A stretch of 35,282 bases of DNA from Actinocrinis puniceicyclus (GTDB taxonomy: Bacteria > Actinomycetota > Actinomycetes > Streptomycetales > Catenulisporaceae), in NCBI RefSeq assembly GCF_018283645.1, contig NZ_JAGSXH010000066.1:1-35282 (forward strand), in the 5' to 3' direction. Positions 11,866 through 27,328 of the stretch are shown here, in pieces (position 1 is the first letter of the stretch; every line of letters starts with the position of its first letter). The notes below the pieces were generated by a model. It saw only the letters and a program-made list of their open reading frames with translations. It was not told the origin of the DNA and searched no databases. A program made the position numbers and the translations under genes.

Positions 11866-12918
11866 TCAGCCGGTCTGCTGCCAGCGCCGCGTCAGCGCGT
11901 CGAGCGCTTCGCGGGTGAGCGTGCCGAGGGCGCGCAGCCGCGCGATCCCGCCGTCGGGGTACACGTCGAGTCGCAGGTGTGTCGCAGGGTCCGCATCGCG
12001 GATCAGGAATCGATGAGCCGCGTCCGGTTGCAGCCTGGTCTTGGGCAGCAGAACCGTCCAGTCGTGCTCGTCCGGCAGCTGATCGCCGTCAGCGCGCGTG
12101 GCCGAGACCCGGACCCTGTCCGGAGCGTTGCCCTTGAAGTGCGTCGTGTCGATCTCCAGCACCTGAACGACGCCCTCGCCGATGAGCCGGACTTCCGCCC
12201 GGTCGTTGCCGCCGTCCCGGCGCCGGGCGTTCTCCCAGCCGTCGCCCATGGTCCGGGCGAGACCGGGCATCAGCATGTTCTCGGCGCGGCCGAAGTACAT
12301 GTCGCTGCACGCTGTGACGCGTGCGCCGTCGATCAAGGCGGCCAGGTTCACGGTCAGGCCGGCGAGGAAGGCGGGATCGGGCAGCGGCTGCGCGTGAACG
12401 CGCAGGCGCGCCACGCCGCCGTCCGGCAACAGGTTGAGACGGACGTGGCTGAAGCGACGTTCGATGCCGGGGACCGGGATGTGGTGCGGCCGGCCGCCGC
12501 GTAGCGCGGTGGCGGGCGCGAGCTCGGTCCAGCGGGCTTTGCCGAGGCGCTTGGGCGAGGGGTGGCCGGCGCACCAGGTCGCGTCGATCGAGCAGCGCGG
12601 CGGGTGGTTGCCCAGGAAGTGTGTGGTGTCCACGACCACGCCGCGGATCAGGCCGGGTGCGGCCAGCCGGATGATCGCGCTGTCGTGTTCGGTCCCTGCG
12701 ACGCCGGGGGCGCCGGGTCTGCGCCTTCGGGTCTCCCAGCCGTCGTACAGCTGGCCCTTCGGGGTGAAAGTGGCCGGGTGGAAGACCGGCGGCTCGGGGT
12801 TGACCAGGTTCTCCTTGTCCGCGAAGAACTCGTCGTTGGCCCAGACCACGGCGCCGCCGAGGGCGCGTGAGGCCAGGTCGGGCAGGCCGGTGAACTCGGG
12901 GTTCGCGTCGCGGTTCAT
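11866..12918 (-). CDS. alc: Allantoicase
   Basis: It hydrolyses allantoate to ureidoglycolate plus urea. The 350 residues contain two copies of the allantoicase (jelly-roll) repeat. Repeat 1 has ASRALGGAVVWANDEFFADKENL, with DGWETRRRR and VVDTTHFLGNHP. Repeat 2 has VTACSDMYFGRAENM, DGWENARRR and EIDTTHFKGNAP. The repeated DTTHFxGN motifs, one per half, are characteristic. The start ATG at 12918 overlaps the allantoinase stop (ATGA), so translation is coupled; there is no strong Shine-Dalgarno. It is the last gene of the purine-degradation run. The urea product links it to the ureFGD genes beyond pucR. The frame remains open far upstream, but that portion only shadows allantoinase and is not coding. 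Confidence 0.94.
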   Translation of the reverse strand: MNRDANPEFTGLPDLASRALGGAVVWANDEFFADKENLVNPEPPVFHPATFTPKGQLYDGWETRRRRPGAPGVAGTEHDSAIIRLAAPGLIRGVVVDTTHFLGNHPPRCSIDATWCAGHPSPKRLGKARWTELAPATALRGGRPHHIPVPGIERRFSHVRLNLLPDGGVARLRVHAQPLPDPAFLAGLTVNLAALIDGARVTACSDMYFGRAENMLMPGLARTMGDGWENARRRDGGNDRAEVRLIGEGVVQVLEIDTTHFKGNAPDRVRVSATRADGDQLPDEHDWTVLLPKTRLQPDAAHRFLIRDADPATHLRLDVYPDGGIARLRALGTLTREALDALTRRWQQTG

Positions 12919-14345
12919 GTCCGTGGTCGCGCCGCCGCGGGCGCGAGGGACTGCGCGGGCGGCGGTGCCGCCGGGGGTGCGCCGCCGATTCGTCGCAGGA
13001 CTTTGCCGTGCGGTTTCTCGCCGACCCGCCGGCCGCGCAGGTACGTGGCCTGTACCAGGCCGGTCAGGGTTCTGCCGTGGTAGGGCGTGATCGGGTGGCG
13101 GTGGGCGAGCCGGGCGGTGTCGACCGTGAACTCGGCGTCGGGATCGAACACGACCAGGTCCGCGTCGCAGCCCACGGCGATGCGTCCTTTGTGCGGCAGG
13201 CCGGCGAAGTCCGCGGTGCGCCGGGACAACAGCCGCACGACGCGGTCCAGAGCCCATCCGCGCGCTCGCGCCTCGGTCCAGAGCGCCGGCAGGGTCGTTT
13301 GCAGGGAGGCGATCCCGCCCCAGGCGGCCGCGAAGTCGCCGTCGCCGCGGTTCTTCAACTCGGCGGGGCAGGGCGAGTGGTCGGAGACGACGAAGTCGAT
13401 CAGGCCGCTGTCGAGGGCGGCCCAGAGCGCCTCGCGGTTGGCCACGGAACGGATCGGCGGGCAGCACTTGTACTCGGTCGCGCCGTCCGGGATCTCCCGG
13501 TCCGCGAAGATCAGATAGTGCGGGCACGTCTCGACGGTCACCGCGATCCCCCGCGCCTTCGCGGCCTCGATCAGCGGCAGGCACTGCGCCGAGGAAAGGT
13601 GCAGGATGTGCACACGCGCTCCGGTGCTCTCGGCGACGGTCAGCGCCTCGGACACGGCCGCGGTCTCGGCGGCGTCCGGCCGCGAGGCGAGGAAGGACGC
13701 GTAGTCGGCGGCAGGGTCTCCGGTGCGTTCGGCGGCCGGCCGTGCCTCGGCGTATTCGTCGAGCACGTTCTGGCTTTCGGCGTGCACGAGCAGCCGCGCG
13801 CCGAGTCGCGCGGCTGCTCGGCCGGCGGCCTCGAACCCTGCGAAGTCCAGGGCCGGGAACTCGGGCACGCCCGAGTCGGCCAGGAAACACTTGAAACCGA
13901 ACGCCCCCGCCTCGTGCAGCGCGGCCAGCTCCGGCAGGTTTCCGGGTACCGCGCCGCCCCAGAAGCCGACGTCGACCATGCACTGTTCCTTCGCGGCAGC
14001 TCGCTTCTCGGCGAGCGCCTCGGGGGTGGTGGTCGGCGGGATCGAGTTGAGCGGCATGTCGATCAGGGTGGTCACGCCGCCGAGCGCGGCCGCCCGCGTC
14101 GCGCTGGCGAATCCCTCCCACTCGGTGCGGCCGGGCTCGTTGACGTGCACGTGCGTGTCCACCAGGCCGGGCAGCAGCGCAAGATCGCCCAAGTCCCGCT
14201 CGCGCGCGGCCGCGGCGGGGGCGTCGTGGGGCAGGACCGCGGCGACCGCCATCCCGGACACACACACGGCCGCCGGGCGCTCACCGTCCGGCAGCAGGAC
14301 GCGGCGGGATCGCAGGACCAGGTCGAAGGTGCGGCGCGGCGCCAT
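12915..14345 (-). CDS. allB: Allantoinase
   Basis: This amidohydrolase opens the allantoin ring to allantoate. The 476 residues include VDTHVHVNEPGRTEWEGF (metal-binding HxH and substrate loop), FGFKCFL with the lysine expected to be carbamylated, LVHAE, HILHLSS, and SDHSPC with the catalytic-type Asp. A C-terminal ~25-residue Pro/Ala-rich tail extends beyond the usual end. The start ATG at 14345 follows the preceding stop by one base, with GAGGAG four to nine bases upstream. It is coupled to allantoicase by an ATGA overlap. The cyclic imidase family also includes dihydropyrimidinases, but the NEPGR motif and the neighbours point to allantoinase. Confidence 0.95.
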   Translation of the reverse strand: MAPRRTFDLVLRSRRVLLPDGERPAAVCVSGMAVAAVLPHDAPAAAARERDLGDLALLPGLVDTHVHVNEPGRTEWEGFASATRAAALGGVTTLIDMPLNSIPPTTTPEALAEKRAAAKEQCMVDVGFWGGAVPGNLPELAALHEAGAFGFKCFLADSGVPEFPALDFAGFEAAGRAAARLGARLLVHAESQNVLDEYAEARPAAERTGDPAADYASFLASRPDAAETAAVSEALTVAESTGARVHILHLSSAQCLPLIEAAKARGIAVTVETCPHYLIFADREIPDGATEYKCCPPIRSVANREALWAALDSGLIDFVVSDHSPCPAELKNRGDGDFAAAWGGIASLQTTLPALWTEARARGWALDRVVRLLSRRTADFAGLPHKGRIAVGCDADLVVFDPDAEFTVDTARLAHRHPITPYHGRTLTGLVQATYLRGRRVGEKPHGKVLRRIGGAPPAAPPPAQSLAPAAARPRT

Positions 14346-21233: not shown

Positions 21234-22184
21234 TCACTGCCAGGCCGCGGGATCAGGCGGTTCGCCGCGGCGCGCGAGAGATCCCTCGATCAGCCCGTAC
21301 GGCCGGTCCGCGGCGTGGAAGACCTCGTTGTCGTTGGTCAGGCCGAAGGGCGCGAGGTCCACGGCGACGTGGTGCCGGTTCGGCAGGGTGAGCCTGGCCT
21401 CCGCGATCGCGTCGTCGTGCTCGAGCAGCCGGCGGCCCATCGCGTAAAGGGTCTGCTGCAGGGAGAGGCTGTGGGTGTCGGCGAACGCCGTCATCAGCGC
21501 GGCCCGCGCGCGGGCGTAGGACTTGTCCCAGTCCGGCTCGCCCGCCGCGCCGCCGCGGCGCCATCTCGCGTCGATCGCGGTGGCCAGCACGCGGTCGCTG
21601 GTTTCGGCGAGCGTGGTGTATTCGTCCTCGTAGAAGCCGTGGAACTCGGAGCCCGCGGTGTTGAGCACGACGAGGTCTTTCAGGCCGCTGACGACGCGGC
21701 TGGCGCCGTCCGCGTCGGCGTGGACGAGCGCGGTGCGGGTTTCGCGGCCGCCGCGCACGAACGAGTGCCGGCTCTCGGCGCCGGGAATGCGGTCCCAGCC
21801 GTATTCCTCGATCCCGATGCGCGCGTGCGTGATGTAAGGGCACGTGGTCAGGAAGTGCTGGGCCAGCAGCAGGGCGAACTGCTCGGCGCTGGCCACTCCG
21901 TGCCGCTTGGCGAGCGCGTAGACGGCGTTCTTCTGCGCGTCGGTGGTCAGTACCTTGGCGTTGTCTCCGGTCAGGTGGGTGTCGGCCTGATCGCCGGACA
22001 GGGCGATGCTCACGTTGAGGTCTTTGAGCGCGTGCTCGGCCGCGCCCCGGGTCACGCGCACGATCCGCACCTCGGCCTTGCCGTAGCGGGTGGGGCCGAG
22101 GACGACGGCTGGGGCGTGCCGGTCCGGCGCCGGCTGCCGGCCGCCGGGCGCGGTTTCGCCGTCCAGGACCTGTTTGCGGTCCAT
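21234..22184 (-). CDS. Urate oxidase (factor-independent urate hydroxylase)
   Basis: It oxidises urate to 5-hydroxyisourate with O2 and no cofactor. The 316 residues form the two-domain uricase (T-fold) repeat. RYGKAEVR contains the catalytic Lys36, and NAKVLTTDAQKN holds the Thr partner (about 80-81). The family signature lies around 200 (LVVLNTAGSEFHGF). NRHHVAVDL supplies the catalytic His near the C-terminus. A ~30-residue disordered leader precedes the first strand. The start ATG at 22184 lies five bases after the uraH stop, with GGGAG nine bases upstream. Unlike fungal and animal uricase it has no peroxisomal signal, as expected in bacteria. Confidence 0.96.
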   Translation of the reverse strand: MDRKQVLDGETAPGGRQPAPDRHAPAVVLGPTRYGKAEVRIVRVTRGAAEHALKDLNVSIALSGDQADTHLTGDNAKVLTTDAQKNAVYALAKRHGVASAEQFALLLAQHFLTTCPYITHARIGIEEYGWDRIPGAESRHSFVRGGRETRTALVHADADGASRVVSGLKDLVVLNTAGSEFHGFYEDEYTTLAETSDRVLATAIDARWRRGGAAGEPDWDKSYARARAALMTAFADTHSLSLQQTLYAMGRRLLEHDDAIAEARLTLPNRHHVAVDLAPFGLTNDNEVFHAADRPYGLIEGSLARRGEPPDPAAWQ

Positions 22185-22189
22185 CGCCG

Positions 22190-22555
22190 TCAGCTCCCCC
22201 GGTAGGTCGAGTACGCGAACGGGCTCAGCAGCAGCGGCACGTGGTAGTGCGCCGCCGCGTCGCCGACCGTGAAGCAGACGGCGACCTCGGGATAGAAGAA
22301 GTCGGTGACGCCGCGGCGCGCGAAGTACCCCGCGGTGTCGAACACCAGCCGGTATCTGCCCTCATGCGCCGCGCCGCTTCGGAACGGGTGCAGTTCGACG
22401 CCACCGAACGCCTCGCGCACGCGGCCGTCCGGGTCGGTGCGGCCGTCGGCCAGGGCACTCCAGCCGTGTGCGGCGGCCGCGTCGAGGCGTACCGTCAGCG
22501 CCGCCGCCGGCCGGCCCAGCGCCGCGTCGAGCACGTGTGTGGACAGGCTCGCCAT
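22190..22555 (-). CDS. uraH: 5-hydroxyisourate hydrolase
   Basis: This transthyretin-related enzyme hydrolyses 5-hydroxyisourate to OHCU. The 121 residues start MASLSTHVLDAALGRPA, with the first catalytic His in STHVLD. They contain DGRVRE and end HYHVPLLLSPFAYSTYRGS, where YRGS is the signature C-terminus that separates these enzymes from true transthyretin. I chose the ATG at 22555, which shares its A with the uraD stop (TGATG). GTG codons at 22558 and 22564 are nearer to the GGAGGGG upstream and remain possible. It is translationally coupled to uraD. Confidence 0.95.
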   Translation of the reverse strand: MASLSTHVLDAALGRPAAALTVRLDAAAAHGWSALADGRTDPDGRVREAFGGVELHPFRSGAAHEGRYRLVFDTAGYFARRGVTDFFYPEVAVCFTVGDAAAHYHVPLLLSPFAYSTYRGS

Positions 22556-23151
22556 CACGGCCACGTCCCCTCCGCGAGGCCGAGAAGCAGCTTGTCGAGC
22601 CGCAGCCGCACGATCTGGTTCAGCTCATCGCGTACCACCGCCTGTTCCGTCGAGGGATCGTTGCGCAGCCGGCCGAGTGCGGCGTCGAGCATCTGCTCAG
22701 CGGTGCGCCCGGTCGCGCGGATCAGGAAGACGTGGCCGAACGCGGCTTCGTATGCGGCGTTCGCCTCGGCCAGTTGCCGGGCTGTGCGCGCGTCGGGGCC
22801 GTCCGCGGCCGCCTGCTCCGCGCGCGACCACGCCGCCGCGGGCGACGCGCGGTCCGCGGCGCGTGTGCCGATGCGCGGGTGCGCGGTGAGGGCTTCGAGA
22901 ACGTCGGGCCAGTCGAGCCGGGCGACTTCCACTGCGGCGATGCGGTACAACTGCGCGGCGTCTGCGTAGGGGCGGACGGCGGCGATAGCCGCAGCCCAGC
23001 GGTGTGACGCGCAGCACGCCGCGAGGGCGGCCGCCGCCTCAGGCGCCGACAGCGCATTGAGACGCTCCAGGCCGGCACGGGCGTGGCCGGGCGCACGCAC
23101 GGGCGCGGGGGCGCCCGCGCCCGCGTCCGCACCACTTGCCACCGCGACCAC
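22555..23151 (-). CDS. uraD: 2-oxo-4-hydroxy-4-carboxy-5-ureidoimidazoline (OHCU) decarboxylase
   Basis: It decarboxylates OHCU to S-allantoin. The 198 residues include LTAHPRIG with catalytic His91, WSRAEQA, FGHVFLIRATGRTAEQML and LRNDPSTEQAVVRDELNQIVRLRL, all family hallmarks. The N-terminal ~25 residues (Ala/Gly/Pro-rich) look like a non-conserved extension. The start GTG at 23151 has GGGAG six bases upstream. It is the first gene of the minus-strand purine run, read away from pucR. The stop overlaps the uraH start. Confidence 0.93.
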   Translation of the reverse strand: MVAVASGADAGAGAPAPVRAPGHARAGLERLNALSAPEAAAALAACCASHRWAAAIAAVRPYADAAQLYRIAAVEVARLDWPDVLEALTAHPRIGTRAADRASPAAAWSRAEQAAADGPDARTARQLAEANAAYEAAFGHVFLIRATGRTAEQMLDAALGRLRNDPSTEQAVVRDELNQIVRLRLDKLLLGLAEGTWP

Positions 23152-23390: not shown

Positions 23391-25133
23391 ATGCGTCTGC
23401 GGGATCTGGTCGAGGCGTCGCCGCTGGGCCTGACGGCCGTCGCCGCCGCGCCCGGCCTGGACCGGGAGCTCGGTTCGGTGATGGTGACCGACCTGCCGGA
23501 CCCGAGCCGGTATCTGCGCGGCGGGGAGCTGGTGGTTTCCGGTCTGGTGTGGCTCAGCGATCCGCGCAGGTCGGCGGCGGAGCACTGCGAGCTGTTCGTG
23601 GGCGCGGTGGCCCGCGCCGGTTGCGCGGGGCTGGCCGCCGGAGACACCACGGACGCGCCGTTGCCGCCGGAACTGCTGGACTCGTGCACGCGGTACGGCG
23701 TGCCGCTGCTGCATGTGCCGGCGCAGCTGGCTTTCGCGGAGCTGACCGAGTGGATTTCCGGGCAGATCTCGGCGCAGCGGGTCGGGGACGCGGGAGAGCT
23801 GCTGGCCAGGCACCGGCTGTTGGTGGCCGCGGAGACGCAGCAGGGGCTGGCCGGGATCGTGCGGCTGATCGGGCAGGAGACCGGGATGGCCTGCTGTGTG
23901 CTCACGGCGGCCGGGGATCTCGTCGCCGCGTGCGGTGGCGCGCCGACAGCGGCGGCGCGCACGGTCATCGCACGCGAGGTGTTGCGCACGGGGGCGTCAC
24001 AGGAGCGGCTGGTCGAGCATCGCGGCCGGGCGTACTCGGTGTACACGGTGCATGGTCGGCCGGGCACCGCGATCACCGACTGGCACGCGGTGTTCGAGGG
24101 CGATTGGCGCACGTGGCCGCGGCAGCGGCGCGAGGCGGCGCGCGGCGCGGCCCGGCTGATCGGCGCCGAGCGGGCGCGGCTGGCCGAGGGGCGGCGGGTG
24201 CTGCGCCGGGTCGGCCGCGAGTTGGTGACGCTCGCCGCGGCGGGCGCGCCGGCGGCGGAGATCGGGGCGCGGCTGGCCGTGGCCGGGCTCGATCCGGCGG
24301 CGGGGCTGCGCGCGGTGGCGGTCGCGGTCACCGGCGCCGGCGCCGGAGTTGGCGGCCTCGACGCGGGCACGGGAACAGGCGCGGGCGCGGGGGAAACATC
24401 GTCGGGCCGCGCGCTGGCGGGTCGGCTGGCGCGGGTGCTGGTGGAGCACGCCGAGGCGCGGGCACCGGTTCCGCTCGCGGTGTTTCATCCGGGCTCGCCT
24501 GCGGCCGCACGTGAACAAGGCAGCGGCGAGGACGCGGAAGGCTCGGGATGGTTCGGCGCGGCGTACGCGGTGGCGCTGTGCACGGATACGGATACGGATG
24601 CGGATACACCCGGCACGTCGGACGACGAGCCGGGTGGCGTGCCCTGGGTGAGCGCGGCGGCGCTGCGCGTGCGTCTGGCGGCGCTGGGCCCGGGTCTCGG
24701 CCGACAGCGGGTCGCAGTGGGCCTGAGCGACCGTTTCACGCAGGCGGCCGAGCTGGCCGGAGCGATCGAGGAAGCGCGGCTCGCGCTGCGGGTGGCGCTG
24801 CGCCGTCCGGGCCGGATCGAGCTGACCGAGCACAGCGAGCTCGCCTCGCACCTGGTGCTGCTCGCGCACGTGCCGGACGAGTTGCGCCGCGGGTACCGCG
24901 ACCGGTTGCTCGGCCCGCTGCGGGCGTACGACGCGCGCCACCATTCACGGCTGGAGGAGACGCTCGACCGTTTCCTGGGCTGCTCGGCGTCGTGGAGCAA
25001 ATGCGCGCAGGAGCTGCACATCCACGTCAACACGCTGCGCTACCGGATCGAGAAGATCAACCAGCTGACGGGCCGGGATCTGGCCCGGCTGGAGCACCAG
25101 GTCGATTTCTACCTCGCGTTGCGGGCGCGGTGA
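23391..25133 (+). CDS. pucR: PucR-family transcriptional regulator of purine catabolism
   Basis: The 580-residue regulator has three parts. An N-terminal PucR sensor-like domain (MRLRDLVEASPLGLTAVA...GGELVVSGLVWL...YGVPLLHVP) occupies residues ~1-125. A central GGDEF-like/CdaR-type region ends in the ~430-500 segment (RVAVGLSDRFTQAAELAGAIEEARLAL). A C-terminal helix-turn-helix lies at ~515-575 (CAQELHIHVNTLRYRIEKIN). The ATG at 23391 has AAGGAG nine bases upstream. In the middle are Gly/Ala/Thr-rich and DTDTDADT low-complexity insertions, encoded by short DNA repeats near 24350-24390 and 24585-24606. It is divergent from uraD and overlaps the MocA-like gene by GTGA. By family and position it probably activates the purine genes in response to allantoin or a related intermediate; sensing is inferred. 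Confidence 0.92.
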   Translation: MRLRDLVEASPLGLTAVAAAPGLDRELGSVMVTDLPDPSRYLRGGELVVSGLVWLSDPRRSAAEHCELFVGAVARAGCAGLAAGDTTDAPLPPELLDSCTRYGVPLLHVPAQLAFAELTEWISGQISAQRVGDAGELLARHRLLVAAETQQGLAGIVRLIGQETGMACCVLTAAGDLVAACGGAPTAAARTVIAREVLRTGASQERLVEHRGRAYSVYTVHGRPGTAITDWHAVFEGDWRTWPRQRREAARGAARLIGAERARLAEGRRVLRRVGRELVTLAAAGAPAAEIGARLAVAGLDPAAGLRAVAVAVTGAGAGVGGLDAGTGTGAGAGETSSGRALAGRLARVLVEHAEARAPVPLAVFHPGSPAAAREQGSGEDAEGSGWFGAAYAVALCTDTDTDADTPGTSDDEPGGVPWVSAAALRVRLAALGPGLGRQRVAVGLSDRFTQAAELAGAIEEARLALRVALRRPGRIELTEHSELASHLVLLAHVPDELRRGYRDRLLGPLRAYDARHHSRLEETLDRFLGCSASWSKCAQELHIHVNTLRYRIEKINQLTGRDLARLEHQVDFYLALRAR

Positions 25134-25783
25134 CGACGGCGGGCCGCACCGTACGGGCCGATCGCGCCGGGAGCGCCGCGGCGCTGATCCTGGCGGCCGG
25201 CGCCGGCGCGCGCTTGGGCGGTCCGAAGGCGCTGCTGTGGTTTCAGGGCCGGCTGCTGGTGGAGCGCGCGGTCGAGGCGGCGGGCTCGGGCGGGTGCGGC
25301 CGGATCGTGGTCGTCCTCGGGGCGGGGGCCGACGAGGTGATGCGGCGCGCGGACCTGGGCCCGGCGCGCTCGGTGCTGAACCGCGGCTGGAGCGAGGGGA
25401 TGGGTTCCTCGCTTCGCGCCGGGCTCGCGGCGCTCGACGCGCCGCCGGACGGCGCCCCGGCCGACGCCGCGCTGGTGCTGCTTGTCGACCAGCCGTTCGT
25501 GGGCGCCGCGGCCGTGCGCGCGGTGCTCGCGGCCTGGCGCGCGGGTGCGCGGTTGGCGGCGGCCTCGTATGGGGGCAGGCGCGGGCACCCGGTGCTGTTC
25601 GCCCGCGAGCACTGGGCGGCGGTCGCGCGCGCTGCGACGGGTGACGCCGGCGCCCGGGGCTTCCTCGCGTCGCACGCGGCGCAAGTCCTCCTCGTTCCGT
25701 GCGACGCCGTCGCCGATCCGCAGGACCTGGACACGCCCGAGGACCTCGACAGACTCGCCCGGCCCGGTACGCCGGGTGCGTGA
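25130..25783 (+). CDS. MocA-like molybdenum cofactor nucleotidyltransferase
   Basis: The 217 residues form a MobA/MocA-type nucleotidyltransferase: LILAAGAGARLGGPKALLWFQG (NTP-binding loop, with GGPK), then WSEGMGSSLRAGLAAL, LLVDQPFV (metal-binding Asp) and GHPVLF. WxxGMxxSLxxG and RxGHP-type motifs favour MocA, which makes molybdopterin cytosine dinucleotide, over MobA. The start GTG at 25130 overlaps the pucR stop (GTGA). Such enzymes commonly accompany XdhC and xanthine dehydrogenase. I infer that this one finishes the cofactor for the enzyme encoded across the divergent region. CTP or GTP preference cannot be proved from sequence. Confidence 0.88.
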   Translation: MTTAGRTVRADRAGSAAALILAAGAGARLGGPKALLWFQGRLLVERAVEAAGSGGCGRIVVVLGAGADEVMRRADLGPARSVLNRGWSEGMGSSLRAGLAALDAPPDGAPADAALVLLVDQPFVGAAAVRAVLAAWRAGARLAAASYGGRRGHPVLFAREHWAAVARAATGDAGARGFLASHAAQVLLVPCDAVADPQDLDTPEDLDRLARPGTPGA

Positions 25784-25962: not shown

Positions 25963-26667
25963 ATGAGCCTGATTCCTCTGCTGCTGCTCGCGGACAGCCG
26001 CCTGCCCGGCGGGACGCATGCGCACTCCGGCGGGCTGGAGGCGGCCGTGGCCGCCGGCCGGGTCCACGACGGCGAGACGCTGCGCGCCTTTCTGCTCGGG
26101 CGGCTGACCGGCGTCGGGTTCACGGCGGCCGCGTTCGCCGCTGCGGCCGCGCTGGAGTTGAGCGGCGGGCTGGTGGTCGGCGAGCGCGGCGTGCAGACCC
26201 GCGAGGCGGCGGCCCTGGACGCCGAGTACGACGCGCGCACGCCCTCCCCGGCGCAGCGCGCCACGTCGCGCGCGCTCGGGCGGCACCTGCTGTGCGCGGT
26301 GCGCGCGGGCTGGCCCGGCGTGCTTCTCGACGCGGTCGCCGGGCTGCATCCGGACGGGCCGCACCACCCGATCGCTTTCGGCGCGGCGGCCGCGGTGGCG
26401 GGGGTGGACCCGGGCGGCGCGGCCGAGGCGGTGGCGCTCGGGTCGGTCACCGGCCCCGCGCACGCGGCCCCGCGGCTGCTCGGACTCGATCCGGACGCGG
26501 TGACCGCGGTGCTCGCCTCGCTGGCCGCGCAGGTGGAGCAGGTCGCCGCCGCGGCGGCGAAGGCGGCGCGCGGCCCGGTCGAGGAACTGCCGGCGGTGGG
26601 CGCGCCGCTGCTGGAGATCGCGGCGCAGCAGGTCCGCGGCGGGCAGGTGCGCTTCTTTGTCTCGTGA
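25963..26667 (+). CDS. ureF: Urease accessory protein UreF
   Basis: UreF joins UreD and UreG in the complex that loads nickel into apo-urease, acting as an activator of UreG GTPase. The 234 all-helical residues begin MSLIPLLLLADSRLPGGTHAHSGGLEAAVAAGRV, the UreF signature (LLxLADxRxPxGxxxHSGG). Helical segments continue to the end (...AVGAPLLEIAAQQVRGGQVRFFVS). The ATG at 25963 has no Shine-Dalgarno; GATACT and TACTGT hexamers lie just upstream, so a very short or absent leader is possible. The 179 bases before it hold only a hairpin and short repeats. The stop overlaps the ureG start. No ureA, ureB, ureC or ureE gene is present in the window. Confidence 0.9.
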   Translation: MSLIPLLLLADSRLPGGTHAHSGGLEAAVAAGRVHDGETLRAFLLGRLTGVGFTAAAFAAAAALELSGGLVVGERGVQTREAAALDAEYDARTPSPAQRATSRALGRHLLCAVRAGWPGVLLDAVAGLHPDGPHHPIAFGAAAAVAGVDPGGAAEAVALGSVTGPAHAAPRLLGLDPDAVTAVLASLAAQVEQVAAAAAKAARGPVEELPAVGAPLLEIAAQQVRGGQVRFFVS

Positions 26668-27328
26668 GGCGGTGGCGCGGCAGGGCGCGGGGCGCGGCGG
26701 CGGAACGCTGCGGGTCGGGATCTGCGGCCCGGTCGGCGCCGGCAAGACCAGCCTGATCGCAGGGCTCTGCGGCGCGCTGGGCACCGAGCTGTCCCTGGCC
26801 GTGCTCATGAACGACCCTGATGTGCAGGCCGAGGAGCCGTTGCTCACGCACCAGGGCCTGGACGCGCGGCGGATCGCCGCGGTGCGCACCGGATGCAGCC
26901 CGCAGGCCGCGATCCGGGACGACATCCGCGCCAACGCCGCCGCGGCCGAAACGCTGGAGTCGCTTTTCGCTCCGCTGGATCTGCTGCTGGTCGAGGCGGG
27001 CGGCGCGGATCTGGGCGCGAACTTCAGCAGGGCACTGATCGACCGGCAGATCTTCGTGCTCGACGCCGCGGCCGGGGACCGCACGGTGCGCAAGGGCGGC
27101 CCGGGCGTCACGCAGGCGGATCTGCTGCTGGTCAACAAGACCGACCTGGCCGCGGCGGCGCGCGCCGATCTGGAGCGGATGCGCCGGGACGCGGCGGCTC
27201 GCAGGGGCGAATCGCCCACGGTGTTCGTCTCGCTCGCCGAGCATCCCGGGGCGCCGGCGGTGGCCGACTGGGTCCGCAAGCTGATGGCGCAGCGGCGGCT
27301 GACCGCGACAGGGCAGGAGCGGCGATGA
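26657..27328 (+). CDS. ureG: UreG-type urease accessory GTPase, divergent metal site
   Basis: UreG is the GTPase that delivers Ni2+ to urease. The 223 residues keep the P-loop GPVGAGKTS, LLLVEAGGADLGANFS, RKGGPGVTQADLLLVNKTDL (guanine-specificity NKxD) and the general length. Several conserved UreG positions are changed. The TNDIYT-x-EDAEFL region reads MNDPDVQAEEPLL. More strikingly, the nickel-binding C-P-H motif (normally TG-x-CPHTAIR) reads TGCSPQAAIR, so the Cys is displaced by one and the His is Gln. The start is TTG at 26657 with AGGTG about eight bases upstream, overlapping ureF by 11 bases; GTG at 26672 is a weaker choice. It is ATGA-coupled to ureD. It may be a functionally shifted UreG paralogue. 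Confidence 0.87.
   Translation: MSREAVARQGAGRGGGTLRVGICGPVGAGKTSLIAGLCGALGTELSLAVLMNDPDVQAEEPLLTHQGLDARRIAAVRTGCSPQAAIRDDIRANAAAAETLESLFAPLDLLLVEAGGADLGANFSRALIDRQIFVLDAAAGDRTVRKGGPGVTQADLLLVNKTDLAAAARADLERMRRDAAARRGESPTVFVSLAEHPGAPAVADWVRKLMAQRRLTATGQERR

Follow-up and report, generated by a model that had tools for sequence, protein, structure and literature searches.

The Cys-Pro-His (CPH) motif has been called invariant in the urease GTPase UreG. The exchanges C66A and H68A in HpUreG abolished the nickel-charged GTP dimer, and the equivalent exchanges in K. aerogenes abolished maturation (PMC3792862). Likewise, UreB D336A, UreD E140A and UreF E85A each abolish activation in H. pylori (PMC10121161). 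A urease cluster lacking accessory genes has been described in S. coelicolor, where SCO5525/SCO5526 form an (AB)C cluster of a UreAB fusion and UreC (PMC2492869). A second urease not using nickel has a precedent in the Helicobacter iron urease UreA2B2 (PMC3816311, PMC11541087), which serves here as an analogy alone. The window, i.e. the whole stretch of 35,282 nucleotides of Actinocrinis puniceicyclus DNA analysed here, contains a ureG gene that codes for neither of the two CPH ligands.

A purine catabolism locus without ureABC

The ureG variant (positions 26657..27328, plus strand; 223 amino acids) has a TTG start, a GTG at 26672 being an alternative. It is overlapped by ureF (PF01730; 25963..26667, plus strand), and its stop forms an ATGA overlap with ureD (PF01774; 27325..28143, plus strand). 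Genes for a MobA-like NTP transferase (25181..25783, plus strand) and a PucR-type purine catabolism regulator (23391..25133, plus strand), both assigned by annotation and synteny, precede them. Divergent from the PucR gene, an OHCU decarboxylase-like gene (22555..23151, minus strand), whose name was read from the sequence and whose synteny is conserved, marks the start of a purine cluster. Its minus-strand genes include those for uricase (21234..22184; annotation), allantoinase AllB (12915..14345; profile match) and allantoicase (11866..12900, start approximate; synteny), the enzyme that releases urea from allantoate.

In two relatives (G010 and G012), the first arm of the locus reads allantoicase-allB-AH_C-(XdhC)-XdhB-GuaD-XdhFeS-Uox-HIU-OHCU, with XdhC matched in G010 only. 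After OHCU, it continues with PucR-ureA-ureB-ureC-ureF-ureG-ureD, and the UreG has CPH. The window follows the relatives' gene order except for PucR-MobA-ureF-ureG-ureD: ureABC are absent, and the MobA-like gene lies at their place. The same order PucR-MobA-ureF-ureG-ureD is found on contig C412 of genome G001, with Xdh genes upstream. Genomes G003 and G005 contain ureFGD with different neighbours. The window ureG is the sole UreG gene of its genome (G000; 98.85% complete, draft, 430 contigs), whose single UreF and single UreD are likewise encoded in the window. Its single UreC is encoded on contig C122. A full-length copy of urea carboxylase, the other urea route, was not found in this genome, and all matches of a plasmid search with the window UreG were below 60% identity.

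Genome G001 holds a full canonical urease operon on contig C96 in addition to its variant ureFGD (L046 / L294). The C96 UreG nests among the UreGs of another genus (g3), which suggests horizontal re-acquisition. G004, G007 and G022 have a distant second type of CPH UreG, 42-47% identical to that of the window, in their ureAB-ureC clusters (L050, L051, L052); the matches in G004 and G007 each read through one TGA.

Altered and retained sites of the variant UreG

The protein belongs to the UreGs by sequence, fold and descent. TIGR00101 (UreG) is its best family with 177.8 bits, under the curated cut-off of 204.2, which is passed by the variants of G001 and G003 and reached borderline by that of G005. 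The best PDB matches are the UreG structures 4hi0 and 5xkt, and a confident AlphaFold2 model (pLDDT 87.3, pTM 0.86) is closest to HpUreG 4hi0 (rmsd 1.4) and KpUreG 5xkt. By translation and alignment, the G1 P-loop GPVGAGKT (26726..26749, plus strand) and the G4 guanine-specificity motif of the NKxD type, NKTD (27134..27145, plus strand), are intact, as originally predicted. The gene order ureF-ureG-ureD in one operon and the descent within the family's UreGs complete the likeness. In contrast to UreG, the window protein is devoid of CPH, of the IY of switch I and of the DN of GGDN, scores below the equivalog cut-off and has no adjoining ureABC. HypB, the hydrogenase nickel GTPase, shares the fold of the G3E GTPase superfamily; this identity was rejected at 49.1 bits versus a cut-off of 121.2 (TIGR00073) and 24% identity.

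In the alignment to HpUreG and KpUreG, which is ungapped at the motif, C80-S81-P82-Q83 (26894..26905, plus strand; codons TGC AGC CCG CAG) replaces x-C-P-H. Ser81 takes the position of the CPH Cys and Gln83 that of the His (C81S, H83Q). The absence of CPH had been predicted correctly; the ligands described at that time as out of place are both gone, but by plain substitution. Since canonical UreGs of the family have GCCPH, Cys80 is an inherited neighbour rather than a shifted ligand. The switch I segment NDPDVQAEEPLL (26810..26845, plus strand; canonical NDIYTxEDAEFL) is altered in the alignment as well, with MNDPDVQAEE in place of TNDIYTxED, in agreement with the prediction. A third site went unnoticed there: GGAD (26999..27010, plus strand) replaces the near-invariant GGDN, and D117 and N118 are changed in all four variants. 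Given the defects of C66A, H68A and their equivalents, nickel delivery by the established mechanism is unlikely for a UreG without both CPH ligands.

CPH is almost invariant, as had been stated: it was present in 193 of 197 distinct UreG fragments, mainly from actinobacteria, plus proteobacteria and others. The exceptions are three SPQ forms (window, G003 and G005) and one SPH form (G001, contig C412). All four come from one family, probably the Catenulisporaceae. These variants retain 49-56 of 64 columns conserved to at least 93% in the canonical set, compared to 61-64 in ten sampled canonical UreGs. Five near-invariant residues are gone in each of them, namely I54 and Y55 (TND-IY), C81 (CPH), D117 and N118 (GGDN). 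The losses are clustered in the switch segments and those of the metal interface; the motifs that bind the nucleotide are spared. When genome contigs were scanned with a profile of the variants, covering few patterns, CPH UreGs alone were among the matches listed. The open-access literature searched gave no description of a UreG without CPH, which is weak evidence of novelty.

The four variant UreGs form one clade next to the family's canonical UreGs (support 100/96), and this clade holds with the three trait segments removed (94/90). The UreD tree gives the same grouping weakly (82/84). The UreF tree disagrees, with the window UreF grouping among the family's canonical UreFs. To the question raised at the outset, tree and locus give the answer that the CSPQ form is a conserved clade and comes with a UreF and a UreD of its own. 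The opposite case, a canonical second ureG next to a copy confined to one strain, does not apply, as this is the only UreG of the genome and CSPQ recurs in two others. Variant UreF and UreD retain most of their invariant columns. The tunnel Glu position of UreD is occupied by Asp in the window (seemingly as in the Klebsiella chain), by Glu in G001 and by Gln in G003 and G005. Loss of this Glu was rejected as a common variant trait, since only G003 and G005 have Gln and G001 keeps Glu. A phmmer search against the PDB for the position of tunnel residue E85 gave no UreF match.

The remaining urease

On contig C122, the UreC gene lies with genes for a UreAB fusion and an agmatine-deiminase-like protein. 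The UreC shares 80-84% identity with full-length copies from many Streptomyces. We call it SCO5526-type on the basis of the UreAB fusion and the gene order, not of a comparison with the SCO5526 sequence. As a rule, ureases of this type are found in Streptomyces that encode a canonical CPH UreG at another site; in G000, it is the sole urease. Within the family, SCO5526-type UreC occurs in exactly the four genomes with a variant UreG (G000, G001, G003, G005) and in none of ten others (Fisher p = 0.001, phylogeny ignored). It is the only UreC in G000, G003 and G005.

The C122 UreC reaches 609 bits with TIGR01792, under the cut-off of 680. All metal ligands, presumably His134, His136, Lys217, His246, His272 and Asp360 (K. 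aerogenes numbering), are present and invariant in 30 sequences. The flap residue Cys319 is replaced by Ala or Val in SCO5526-type UreC. Moreover, the acid at the mouth of the nickel tunnel (HpUreB Asp336) is Arg in 38 of 38 SCO5526-type segments, and an acid (Asp or Glu) in 121 of the 122 others, where the position was set by the motif A-x-x-R-I-R and the counts include overlapping loci.

An SCO5526-type urease is present in 103 of the 158 genomes sampled from the order, or about two thirds. It is more common in genomes with UreG (99/141) than in those without (4/17; p = 0.0003, relatedness ignored). The four of these 103 genomes without detected UreG (E-value 1e-15) are G019, G045, G489 and G490; in G019 and G045, neither UreG, sought also with its family model, nor UreF was found. 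The Streptomyces-like G019 (L169, L172; 5 contigs) has an intact SCO5526-type urease, and its canonical cluster is a remnant with a broken UreC, a partial UreD and UreF and UreG gone. As four genomes keep the urease without a detected UreG, UreG is not strictly necessary to retain it, although a dependence may exist.

The fused UreAB of G000 has a His/Asp-rich linker, GHADGHDHDHDGHGDGHGD (L004, contig C122), absent from 29 relatives compared. As a stand-in metal store it was rejected because it is missing in the other three variant genomes. An agmatine-deiminase-like gene follows SCO5526-type ureAB-ureC in most genomes examined (L004 433-4535; L165-L171), and none of six genomes had an AguB above the curated cut-off. 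UreAB/UreC-like pairs, approx. 65% identical to the SCO5526 type, lie inside NRPS clusters on Streptomyces and Embleya plasmids (L301, NZ_CP109047.1, 6282-8647; L302, NZ_CP108786.1, 6291-8677). They retain the metal ligand motifs, have Ala in place of the tunnel-mouth acid (AADRIR), are without accessory genes in the stretch and may be tailoring enzymes. Considering these relatives and the neighbouring agmatine deiminase, the substrate of SCO5526-type UreC may not be urea; N-carbamoylputrescine is a possible candidate. No proof of metal or substrate of SCO5526-type ureases was found in the open-access literature.

Possible roles of the variant UreG

Tentatively, and somewhat short of calling it probable, we propose that the variant UreG is a GTPase that is no longer a CPH nickel carrier and is kept for a urease loaded in another way. 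The sequences show the substitutions, the clade, the synteny with its lost genes, the joint occurrence in genomes and the pattern of selection; that UreG acts as a GTPase and within a complex, which client it has and how the metal travels is what we infer. The window ureG would be the family's own, inherited in a purine-catabolism/urease locus from which the canonical ureABC would have been lost in this lineage, with ureF-ureG-ureD left behind. UreG would then have lost the CPH ligands together with neighbouring switch and interface residues and kept its GTPase fold. With UreF, UreD and GTP, it would act on the SCO5526-type apo-urease. Nickel would no longer be carried in the CPH site through the UreF-UreD tunnel, and the metal would arrive at the active site otherwise, either directly or as another metal.

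This proposal is consistent with the single clade found with or without the trait columns, the intact ureFGD of four genomes at dN/dS below 1, the conserved columns of UreF and UreD, the synteny around the missing ureABC and the function lost in the CPH mutants (PMC3792862). It is also in accordance with the restriction, within the family, of the SCO5526-type UreC to the genomes with a variant UreG, with the retention of all metal ligands and the altered tunnel mouth and flap of this UreC, and with the persistence of that urease in four genomes without detected UreG. The original suggestion that the GTPase works with another protein takes the form of an association with a different urease, as judged from genome distribution. 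However, four variant genomes from two genera are a small sample, their link to the second urease may go back to one evolutionary event, and the window UreF stands apart from the other variant UreFs in the tree. If the SCO5526-type urease manages without UreG, as in G019, the variant may even have no client. It is rather doubtful that UreFGD with a metal-free GTPase serves the SCO5526-type urease-like enzyme, the GTPase step being separate from metal carriage. We are equally hesitant to assume that in this case the metal of the enzyme, nickel or other, comes without a CPH hand-off via the UreF-UreD tunnel.

A strong rival is slow decay. After the loss of ureABC, ureFGD would have been unneeded and would be drifting slowly towards loss, which we consider a serious possibility, if on the doubtful side. 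Pairwise dN/dS values (Nei-Gojobori) were raised in the variant UreGs (0.28-0.54 versus 0.06-0.26 in canonical UreGs of the family); those of variant UreF (0.17-0.44) and UreD (0.13-0.38), from genus g2 alone, were similar. Together with switch I changes that are unlike one another among the four variants, these values resemble drift. UreG is 61-84% identical across genomes where SCO5526-type UreC is 83-94% identical, and G019 lost its canonical accessory genes while the SCO5526-type urease stayed. Nevertheless, all three genes have intact frames in four genomes and two genera with dN/dS clearly below 1 (0.13-0.28 for ureF, ureG and ureD in G003 versus G005), and the losses are focused on the same five residues, with P-loop and NKTD retained. 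By these ratios, the variant UreG is under purifying selection, though less strongly than canonical UreG, which fits a changed role and slow decay alike. As to the decaying copy of the original prediction, a one-strain pseudogene is excluded, and slow decay under weakened selection is still alive.

Delivery of nickel or another metal by the variant UreG via substitute ligands, for instance the candidates Cys80 and His196 or residues of a partner, is unlikely; this would be the different metal binding suggested originally. In the three SPQ forms, Cys80 stands immediately before the former Cys position but is merely ancestral, and it is missing in G001, which retains the CPH His. All four variants have His196, as does 1 of 21 canonical rows, but it is not known to lie at the dimer interface, and the tunnel mouth of the client is altered too. 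Recruitment of UreFGD to another metalloenzyme, for instance the adjoining molybdenum or purine enzymes, is very improbable. The location in a purine cluster beside MobA-like and Xdh genes would suit it, but ureFGD of G003 and G005 lies away from these genes, the conserved UreF and UreD columns are mostly kept, and the position is inherited, as canonical ureFGD already sat at this locus. A sequencing or assembly error or one-strain pseudogene, conceivable in a draft genome of 430 contigs, is practically refuted: two other genomes also have S-P-Q and a third has S-P-H, and the frame is open and coupled to those of ureF and ureD.

In the current model, nickel delivery to urease begins at CPH. 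A clade that lacks CPH by nature, and whose only remaining client would be a urease changed at the tunnel mouth, allows a test of which elements of this model are indispensable. It also draws attention to SCO5526-type ureases, widespread as they are in the sampled genomes of the order. The soil actinobacterium Actinocrinis and its three relatives may reveal how the SCO5526-type urease gets its metal. The four genomes may show the metal supply of this second type because in three of them it is the only urease left.
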